A stretch of 64,000 bases of DNA from Pseudomonas sp. BN417 (GTDB taxonomy: Bacteria > Pseudomonadota > Gammaproteobacteria > Pseudomonadales > Pseudomonadaceae). Shown piece by piece: positions 7,862 to 36,595 of the stretch; positions within the stretch are counted from its first letter, which is position 1; the number at the start of each line of letters is the position of its first letter. The position numbers and the translations under genes were made by a program. The notes under the pieces are model-generated. The model did no database searches and had not been told where the DNA came from. It saw only the letters and a program-made list of their open reading frames with translations. The stretch spans positions 167 through 64,166 of the forward strand of contig NZ_SSOJ01000076.1 of the NCBI RefSeq assembly GCF_029871205.1, written 5' to 3'.

Positions 7862-7903
7862 AGCGCAAGAATTTCCTCCATTGCAAATTCTTGCGCTCTT
7901 TTT
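7862..7903 (+). terminator. Strong terminator of the MscS-family gene
   Basis: A perfect 13-bp stem (7862-7874 with 7885-7897) and a 10-base loop are followed by CTTTTTC. It isolates the leuA leader region from upstream transcription. Confidence 0.95.
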
Positions 7904-7923: not shown

Positions 7924-7952
7924 TTGCCATATTCACTCACGATGAATAGGGT
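7924..7952 (+). promoter_or_regulatory. Possible promoter of the leuA leader transcript
   Basis: TTGCCA (7924-7929) and TAGGGT (7947-7952) are separated by 17 bases. Transcription would begin at about 7959-7960, essentially at the ATG of the leader peptide, so the leader would have almost no untranslated region. The -10 match is weak. Confidence 0.4.
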
Positions 7953-7959
7953 TAGCTCC

Positions 7960-8037
7960 ATGAAAACCGCACACACCCTCATTCTTCTGCGCCAACACGC
8001 CTGCCTGCGACTGGTCAGCCCACGACTGCGTGGCTGA
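7960..8037 (+). CDS. Putative leader peptide upstream of leuA
   Basis: A 25-codon frame with six leucine codons (CTC, CTT and four CTG) and four arginine codons, containing the stretch [17 protein letters not shown] before TGA. An in-frame ATG at 7942 could add six residues. The stop codon overlaps a hairpin (8016-8036), and a second small hairpin (8075-8091) precedes leuA. Position, size and leucine richness fit translation-controlled regulation of leuA by leucine supply, but the leucines are not in one block and no classic U-run terminator follows. This is an inference from layout. Confidence 0.5.
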
Positions 8038-8091
8038 AACCGACCTCCGCCGCAACGCCGCTTGAATCAGTCAAGGCCACCACGACTGGCC
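8016..8091 (+). promoter_or_regulatory. Hairpins in the leuA leader
   Basis: CAGCC-ACG pairs with CGT-GGCTG around 8016-8036, with one bulged C, and covers the end of the leader peptide. GGCCA (8075-8079) pairs with TGGCC (8087-8091) about 20 bases before the leuA start. The octamer cacgactg occurs in both hairpins (8021 and 8081). A ribosome stalled in the leader would block the first hairpin. Confidence 0.4.
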
Positions 8092-8111
8092 CGCAGAACA
8101 AGGATTGCCCC

Positions 8112-9782
8112 ATGAGCATGCTGAAAGACCCGTCCCGCAAGTACCGCGCCTTCCCCGCCATCGACCTGCCGGACCGCACCTGGCCGTCGAAGACCATCAC
8201 CGAAGTGCCGATCTGGTGCAGTTCCGACCTGCGCGACGGCAACCAGTCGCTGATCGAGCCGATGGACGCCGCGAAGAAGATGCGTTTCTTCAAGACACTG
8301 GTCCAGGTCGGATTGAAGGAAATCGAAGTGGCTTTCCCGTCGGCTTCCGACACCGACTTCAACTTCGTGCGCGAGCTGATCGAGCACAACCATATTCCCG
8401 ATGACGTGACCATCCAGGTGCTGACCCAGGCCCGTGACGACCTGATCACCCGCACCTTCGAGTCCCTGCGCGGGGCCAAGAAGGCCATCGTCCACGTCTA
8501 CAACGCCACTGCCCCGTCCTTCCGCCGCATCGTCTTCAACCAGGACAAGCAAGGCGTGATCGACATCGCCACCAACGCCGCCAGGCTGATCAAGAAACTG
8601 GCCGCCGAGCAGCCGGAAACCCAGTGGACCTTCCAGTATTCGCCCGAGATCTTCAGCTCCACCGAGCTGGAATTCGCCGTACAGGTCTGCGACGCGGTGA
8701 TCGACGTCTGGCAACCGACCCCGGACAACAAGATCATCCTCAACCTGCCGGCTACCGTTGAGTGCGCCACGCCCAATGTCTACGCCGACCAGATCGAGTG
8801 GTTCGGCCGCCATATCAGTCGCCGCGACTCGGTACTCATCAGCCTGCACACCCATAACGACCGTGGCACCGGCGTCGCCGCCACCGAACTGGGCCTGATG
8901 GCCGGCGCCGACCGCGTCGAAGGCTGCCTGTTCGGCAACGGCGAGCGCACCGGCAACGTCGACCTGGTGACCCTGGCGCTGAACATGTACACCCAGGGCC
9001 TGCACCCCGAACTGGACTTCTCCGACATCGACGCCGTGCGCAAGGTGGTCGAGGAGTGCAACCAGCTGCCGGTGCACCCGCGCCATCCCTATGTCGGGGA
9101 CCTGGTCCACACCGCCTTCTCCGGCTCCCACCAGGACGCCATCCGCAAGGGCTTCGCCCAACAGAAGGAAGACGCCCTGTGGGAGGTGCCCTACCTGCCG
9201 ATCGACCCGGCCGACATCGGCCGCAGCTACGAAGCGGTGATCCGGGTCAACAGCCAGTCCGGCAAGGGCGGCATCACCTTCCTGCTGGAGCAGGAATACG
9301 GTGTCAGCCTGCCGCGCCGCATGCAGATCGAGTTCAGCCAGGTCGTACAGAAGGAAACCGATCGCCTGGGCCTGGAAATGACCGCCCAGCAGATCTACCA
9401 GCTGCTGGACAGCGAGTACCTGCAGGCAACCACGCCCTTCACCCTGAAAGGCCATCGCCTGCAGGAAGAGAACGGCACCAGCGCCGTAGACATCGAAGTG
9501 CAGGTCAAGGGCGAAACCCAGCACCTGCGCGGCATCGGCAAGGGGCCACTGGAAGCCCTGGTGGCCAGCCTGCCGGTGAAGGTGGAGATCATGGACTACT
9601 CCGAGCACGCCATCGGCGCCGGTACCAACGCCAAGGCCGCCGCCTATATCGAGTTGCGCGTCAACGGCGGTCGAGCCCTGCACGGTATCGGCATCGACGA
9701 GAACCTGACCACCGCCAGCTTCCGCGCCCTGTTCAGCGCCCTCAACCGCGCCCTGAGCCAGGCCGAGGCCGAAGCGGCCTGA
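8112..9782 (+). CDS. leuA: 2-isopropylmalate synthase
   Basis: Condenses 2-oxoisovalerate with acetyl-CoA, the first committed step of leucine synthesis. The 556-residue length marks the long (LeuA2) type. It has an N-terminal TIM barrel with [10 protein letters not shown] and HTHNDRG (metal ligands), and a C-terminal regulatory domain from about 430 that binds leucine for feedback inhibition. The start [15 protein letters not shown] is conserved, and AAGGA lies about ten bases upstream. The gene stands alone, preceded by the putative leader peptide and followed by a strong terminator. Confidence 0.97.
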
Positions 9783-36509: not shown

Positions 36510-36595
36510 GCCTCGGTGGCGGAATGGTAGACGCGGCGGATTCAAAATCCGTTTCTGGCGACAGAGTGAGAGTTCGAGTCTCTCCCGGGGCACCA
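36510..36595 (+). tRNA. tRNA-Leu (anticodon CAA)
   Basis: An 86-base class II tRNA with a seven-base-pair acceptor stem (GCCTCGG with CCGGGGC), anticodon loop TTCAAAA giving CAA for UUG codons, a long variable arm, GTTCGAGTC in the T arm, and the CCA end encoded. It stands alone between queA and the cold-shock gene. Confidence 0.97.

Follow-up and report, generated by a model that had tools for sequence, protein, structure and literature searches.

What controls leuA in Pseudomonas sp. BN417, and does the short leucine-containing frame that precedes it take part in this control? In the window, by which we mean the whole stretch of 64,000 nucleotides analysed here, leuA encodes 2-isopropylmalate synthase (8112..9782; recognised as an ORF and by match to the family profiles NF002991 and TIGR00970) and, like the features of its leader region described below, lies on the + strand. 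It is preceded by a frame of 25 codons plus stop (7960..8037), with its ATG at 7960 and its TGA at 8035-8037, which leaves a gap of 74 nt to the leuA start at 8112. The initial annotation proposed that this frame encodes a leader peptide controlling leuA, pointing to its six leucines and to a terminator isolating it from upstream reading. Both are present in the sequence: the leucines occupy codons 7, 9, 10, 16, 18 and 23, and the MscS-like gene upstream ends in an intrinsic terminator (7862..7903) with a 13-bp stem (arms 7862-7874 and 7885-7897), a 10-nt loop and a T run, CTTTTT. A pattern scan did not list this terminator, probably because its 10-nt loop exceeds the limit of 8 set in the scan. 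The leucine content is not significant in itself, since six or more leucines per 25 codons are expected by chance with P = 0.06 at the Leu frequency of the 39 predicted window genes, and the case for a leader thus rests on comparison. At another place, the genome also codes for a second LeuA-like protein, a distant one with 30% identity (L002, G000:C15:15118-16590).

A search with the 25-residue peptide indicates that about 137 of 248 genomes of the family, presumably Pseudomonadaceae, carry the leader. The raw tally was 139 genomes spanning 13 genera, but two weak matches interrupted by stop codons (G111 and G052, E about 0.05-0.07) were counted as chance, and 2 of the 13 genera rest solely on these. 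The leader is found in all 18 genomes of the window's own genus, and as a single copy in this genome. In every one of the 110 loci brought in by peptide match (80 + 30 fetched loci), leuA lies directly 3' of it, 100-215 nt from the leader start; the distance from leader stop to leuA ranges from 30 to 132 nt across relatives. Leaders of genus g6 (L074-L077, L081) have six extra codons, and their stop lies just 30 nt before leuA. Further away, the peptide search across 274 genomes of the class (E up to 0.01) matched the window's own genome alone. The same leuA type is present in 48 of 229 class genomes; among the 30 loci returned, 28 were from outside the family, and the peptide was found in none of the 27 of these with enough upstream DNA (L171 offers 33 nt). 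Short leucine-rich frames of a more classic look stand upstream of the same leuA type in four loci from other families of the class (L166, L172, L174, L177).

Judged from these searches, the leader is a family feature that is absent from many lineages. leuA itself is present in 246 of the 248 family genomes. With so many lineages lacking it, the leader is not needed for leuA as such. Twenty-five leader-less leuA regions inside the family were inspected, and 20 more including L206, where a stretch before leuA resembles a decayed leader: it is interrupted by a stop and has CAC instead of CGA. In genus g5, a hairpin with the fixed loop (C/T)CAC(A/G)AG occurs in the last 80 nt before leuA, 5' of its Shine-Dalgarno site, in 13 of the 25 leader-less regions (L027-L031, L151-L154, L156, L157, L159, L161) as against 0 of 113 leader-bearing ones. 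Its stems differ and are self-complementary (GCGC, GCGT/ACGC, GGCC with extensions), and it is possibly a second kind of leuA control element in leader-less lineages. Genus g15, also without leader, displays a CACCATA stretch after a TTGCA...TAGCTT-like promoter in 8 of 10 regions (L142-L147, L149, L150), where leuA control may be different again.

For the comparison, we retained stretches scoring at least 50 against the window's peptide, present in 134 of 160 loci, and merged identical promoter-to-leuA regions into 113 distinct leader regions. Aligned in this way, the regions upstream of leuA keep the frame; a lack of frame conservation, one of the outcomes by which the initial annotation would have been refuted, did not occur. 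R11, Q12, L18, R22 and L23 are invariant in 113/113; V19 (112), L7 (110), L16 (109), T6 (108) and S20 (107, plus 6 Ala) are nearly so, and L9 gives way to other residues in 23 regions, L10 in 17. In the alignment and on the tree, the R-Q residues of codons 11-12 (7990..7995) are fixed though their codons vary. The window's exact peptide exists in 14 DNA versions whose 12 polymorphic sites all fall at third codon positions; mean dN amounts to about 0.30 of mean dS (5,615 pairs with pS < 0.6; 112 of the 113 regions, as for the tree below, one with a shifted start being left out). Because leaders were picked by similarity, their amino-acid conservation is biased upwards; the synonymous sites are free of this bias. 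From these comparisons, the leader frame is real and conserved as a peptide, and its link to leuA, as initially proposed, stands. Its most constrained part is R11-Q12, L18-V19-S20 and R22-L23, above all the CGA codon, and not the leucine count. As would be expected of an arrest peptide of the TnaC kind, it is the amino acid, and not only the codon, that is fixed at putative tunnel positions, with codons free at R11 and Q12. One divergent leader outside this set, L158, has K at 11 and one extra residue; it carries CGA at the matching place and the same promoter layout. As a separate observation, Leu codon 7 (7978-7980) is CTC in 99 of the 110 members with Leu there, compared with 19% of Leu codons in window genes.

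The position of the promoter is conserved as well. The motif TAnnnT, sought 3-12 nt before the leader ATG, ends 6-8 nt before it in 113/113 regions (7 nt in 85), against a background of 1.2% at a single offset, and the best -35 spacing is 17 nt in 102/113. In the window, the order is TTGCCA (-35, 7924..7929, also supported by comparison of leader regions), 17 nt, TAGGGT (-10, 7947..7952), 7 nt and the ATG at 7960, which places the predicted transcription start within ~2 nt of the ATG. A general sigma-70 consensus scan did not call this promoter. No Shine-Dalgarno-like word is found at -18 to -4 of the leader ATG in any of the 113 regions; leuA has its own AGGA in 111/113, being AAGGA in the window (8100..8104). 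Since a conserved -10 element lies so close to the ATG and a Shine-Dalgarno site is lacking, the leader frame is probably leaderless, and the initial guess of a promoter almost at the leader ATG, with a nearly leaderless transcript, fits the layout of all 113. It also provides, for these bacteria, a naturally occurring and conserved candidate case of leaderless translation.

All 113 leader regions have CGA as codon 22. Elsewhere this is a rare choice: among Arg codons, its share is 0.6% in 39 leuA genes and 2.1% (of 1,266) in the 39 predicted window genes. On a tree of 112 tips built from the first 180 nt of leuA, its third base shows 0 parsimony changes, compared with at least 29 for codon 11, also Arg. 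Such a never-changing synonymous codon on a tree with free turnover at other leader codons is unusual. When the strict motif RQHxxLxLVSxRL was sought with CGC, CGG or CGT in a species-genome collection (84,980 genomes by its description), two matches were obtained. Neither has a frame resembling the leader, nor a convincing leuA start in the 8 kb examined. Members in which position 13 differs, 16 is Gln or 20 is Ala escape this motif.

A scan of 58 tRNA places of the draft genome gave the Arg anticodons acg, ccg, tct and cct and no tRNA-Arg with anticodon UCG; tRNA-Leu with anticodon CAG is present. A further tRNA-Leu gene, with anticodon CAA, lies at 36510-36595 of the same window. By the decoding rules, in cells lacking a UCG tRNA, CGA is read by inosine in tRNA-Arg(ACG). 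As none was found here, CGA must be read by inosine wobble. Inosine in tRNA-Arg(ACG) is treated for E. coli and V. cholerae in parts of PMC12588516, and CGA-CUG is listed among the inhibitory codon pairs of yeast in sections of PMC6379720, which describe I-A wobble as slow. The likeness lies in the same pair and in the same I-A reading of CGA. Yeast is a eukaryote in which, according to these sections, CUG is read by U-G wobble, unlike here, where tRNA-Leu has anticodon CAG; the slow pair thus cannot be carried over directly to this leader. The alignment, codon usage, tree and tRNA scan taken together point to codons 22-23, CGA-CTG (8023..8028), as a candidate pause site, and we infer that this pair would slow the ribosome here.

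How might such a frame act on leuA, if at all? That it is a chance ORF without function has in its favour the leucine P value of 0.06, and is refuted by the conservation of the peptide, of codon 22 and of the promoter layout, so that we consider its probability negligible. The peptide could instead be a small protein acting in trans, as peTrpL of Sinorhizobium, a trans-acting leader peptide being reported in the part of PMC7298713 concerned. This would suit its strong conservation. Against it, the frame is in one copy in the genome and adjoins leuA in all 110 loci brought in by the peptide, its C-terminal tails vary, and a constraint on a codon has no bearing on a finished peptide; an action in trans is hence very improbable. 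In classic attenuation with lineage-specific hairpins, Leu codons would stall the ribosome and so choose between a leader-spacer helix and the hairpin GGCCA-N7-TGGCC (8075..8091, arms 8075-8079 and 8087-8091), which is followed by the Shine-Dalgarno site of leuA. Many relatives have similar GGCC pairs before leuA and others have none; in 75% of 107 regions, folding of the 3' spacer half is somewhat more favourable than in shuffles (-8.6 vs -7.4 kcal/mol). Yet this hairpin has no U run, and no U-run terminator is found between leader frame and leuA in the window sequence, as the initial annotation had noted; nor is there a run of Leu codons, the leucines being scattered and those at 9 and 10 replaceable. 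RNAalifold, applied to 77 of the 113 regions (spacer 45-100 nt, < 80% alike), gave -0.89 kcal/mol with three pairs and no compensatory change, hence no conserved nested structure such as a terminator with a competing antiterminator, and nothing matching the hairpin at 8075-8091. The second hairpin of the initial annotation is therefore present here but was not detected as a conserved structure in the 77 relatives. Its other hairpin, around the stop codon (8015..8037, arms 8015-8020 and 8032-8037), can form at least 4 of its 6 outer pairs in 105/113 relatives, is more stable than shuffles in 93% of 107 regions (-10.7 vs -7.0) and pairs better than slid versions of itself, but its pair counts do not exceed those of shuffled columns (141 of 500 shuffles as high), and fixed codons can explain its frequency: the stop codon does sit in a hairpin, one that lacks covariation beyond its column make-up. 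Lacking both a U run and covarying hairpins, and leaving the fixed R-Q, V-S and CGA unexplained, classic attenuation is rejected as the main mechanism, in line with the initial doubt on this point, and we hold it as improbable.

Translational attenuation or coupling, the mode initially thought of as an alternative, supposes that the leuA start is masked by a helix and becomes free when a ribosome stalls in the leader, the principle of erm leaders. The Shine-Dalgarno site owned by leuA would be the target, and some single-sequence folds do pair it with the leader end. In a permutation test, however, the leader end gains nothing from having its own leuA start as partner (-12.5 in cis, -12.6 permuted), which speaks against coevolution, and masking of this site by the leader end as main mechanism was rejected for want of a cis advantage. 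Seven further pairings in 107 of the 113 regions (spacer ≥50 nt), by statistics that ignore relatedness and base composition, were mixed: three favour own partners, two are strongly opposite and two neutral, leaving lineage-specific pairing as a possibility. Leader nt 31-57 with own leuA start (2/2000 permutations as good) would suit coupling; leader 55-stop and 31-57 with own 3' spacer (0 and 1 of 2000 as good) would rather suit the leader-spacer helix of classic attenuation; against coupling, leader 1-30 and the 5' spacer pair worse than permuted (1994 and 1999 of 2000 as good or better). With the variable stop-to-leuA distance and the absence of a structure detected by RNAalifold also against it, coupling by a helix at the leuA Shine-Dalgarno site did not hold up, and translational attenuation is unlikely. 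Finally, the invariant CGA and a favoured GTC could be signals at the RNA level, as a short GUC/GAC stem or a protein-read loop, and not matters of decoding. The sole three pairs of RNAalifold are indeed columns 55-57 with 65-67 (GUC/GAC), GTC makes 94% of Val codons at position 19 vs 36% in window genes, and the third base of CGA, in the loop of the stop-codon hairpin, is unpaired with probability > 0.5 in 84% of 113 regions. But this stem has 3 bp and -0.9 kcal/mol, CGG would preserve a G-U pair and never occurs, and the 8 of 113 regions in which the stop-codon hairpin reaches at most 3 of 6 outer pairs all still carry CGA; such RNA signals thus seem improbable to us. A hexamer serving as a DNA operator is a further conceivable reading. 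Of the initial interpretation as a whole, the conserved leader peptide tied to leuA remains; the hairpins as covarying conserved parts and the helix coupling to the leuA Shine-Dalgarno site do not.

Our preferred reading is that a ribosome pauses at CGA-CTG with the help of the nascent chain and thereby affects leuA in cis, to which we assign, from sequence comparison, a probability of roughly 0.5. Its parts are not of equal strength. That the leader acts in cis on leuA is very likely: it is a short frame with a conserved peptide beside a biosynthetic gene. Leucine or leucyl-tRNA is the likely signal, as suggested by the gene that follows. A pause at CGA-CTG is somewhat favoured, and Rho as the output is put forward tentatively. 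In this preferred reading, transcription would start at or beside the leader ATG, and the ribosome would translate from the bare 5' end until it pauses near the leader end at codons 22-23, where CGA would be read by inosine wobble alone and the next codon would require leucyl-tRNA. R11-Q12, 11 and 10 residues before R22, and L18-V19-S20 would probably assist from the exit tunnel. With scarce leucyl-tRNA, the pause would be long; the ribosome would then cover both the stop codon and the beginning of the C-rich spacer, Rho would find no place to load, and RNA polymerase would continue into leuA. With ample leucine, the ribosome would finish and depart, Rho would load on the spacer and most transcripts would end before leuA. 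A paused ribosome protecting leuA transcription is favoured because the layout is TnaC-like, with fixed residues 10-12 before the stall codon, a C-rich stretch and no terminator. A more specific proposal, which we regard as possible though rather doubtful, is that of a leaderless arrest peptide in which a rare, inosine-read CGA before a Leu codon is obligatory: together, an I-A pair in the P site and the nascent chain would render a single Leu codon extremely sensitive to the supply of leucyl-tRNA, and leuA would be controlled by the stalled ribosome without any conserved RNA structure.

The candidate Rho-binding stretch is the C-rich, G-poor spacer 3' of the stop (8038..8074). In the 99 of 113 regions with a spacer of at least 60 nt, the first 40 nt after the leader stop have a C content of 41% and a G content of 18%. 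Their C minus G is 0.232 (> 0.1 in 95% of 99) and their YC dinucleotides stand at 0.280; the corresponding values are 0.150 and 0.128 in the 25 leader-less leuA regions, and 0.040 and 0.179 for 17 window genes. In the window itself, the spacer is less skewed (C 0.40, G 0.225). The 5' part of the spacer is no more folded than shuffles. C-rich, G-poor RNA that may be unstructured thus follows the stop, but the C over G excess is not special to it, the leader ORF being equally C-rich and its first 25 nt more skewed (C minus G 0.313), so that composition suggests a Rho site only weakly. Moreover, if the ribosome paused with L23 in its A site, its footprint would extend just a few nt beyond the stop and leave most of the C-rich spacer bare. 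Also against the preferred reading, the weak 3-bp GUC/GAC stem could draw on both the C at the third position of V19 and the A of CGA.

We recognised no earlier report of such a leader before leuA in the open-access literature. By word search, the attenuator survey PMC2965389 does not mention leuA, and neither leuA nor leaderless occurs in the main text of a transcriptome study of P. aeruginosa. No Rfam family reaches its gathering score in the leader region; adapt33_3, at 17.9 bits for a cut-off of 70, is a chance-level match. For the peptide, NCBIfam, Pfam and PHROGs give weak chance-level matches at best, such as phrog_36884 (E 0.01 in 7 of 34 peptides) and TIGR01495 (E 0.035 in 1 of 34), which we do not retain as its family. 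It seems, then, that leucine synthesis over much of a bacterial family has a control element not described so far, and this raises the question of wobble decoding in a regulatory sensor, testable by one base change.

How does this element relate to known leaders? In Enterobacteria, leuA is preceded by the Leu-codon attenuator of leuL type. The leader described here shares with it a frame with Leu codons before leuA, but has no Leu run, no U-run terminator and no covarying hairpins. It may resemble actinobacterial leader peptides with an R-x-H...L...V-S pattern. Among the published leuA leaders that we compared, the actinobacterial LEU elements, as presented in the relevant part of PMC1262725, are the closest: they too have a leader frame before leuA without classic attenuation. 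They differ in having a Leu run that pairs with the leuA Shine-Dalgarno box, and their structure includes a pseudoknot; for the leader here, RNAalifold detected no conserved nested structure in 77 members.

The proposed mechanism has its nearest counterparts elsewhere. Some Mycobacterium cysteine leaders are leaderless, as is probably the case here. For these cysteine leader peptides, which show no obvious terminators, Rho-dependent termination has been proposed by analogy with tna in a section of PMC1262725; amino acid, taxa and peptide are other than ours. In TnaC of the E. coli tna operon, passages of PMC10941005 refer to residues W12, D16, I19 and P24 and describe an arrested ribosome that keeps Rho off the rut site. 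Like TnaC, our leader is a short peptide in which fixed residues precede the proposed stall codon, itself near the stop, by about 10-12 positions; it likewise lacks a hairpin terminator and has a possible Rho site after the stop. The two have no sequence likeness by eye, and the leader before leuA is probably leaderless, precedes a biosynthetic gene and carries a fixed rare codon. As arrest and Rho dependence are proposals here, we do not place it in the TnaC family and consider it a candidate analogue in which a single wobble-read CGA, followed by a Leu codon, would occupy the place of the stall site.
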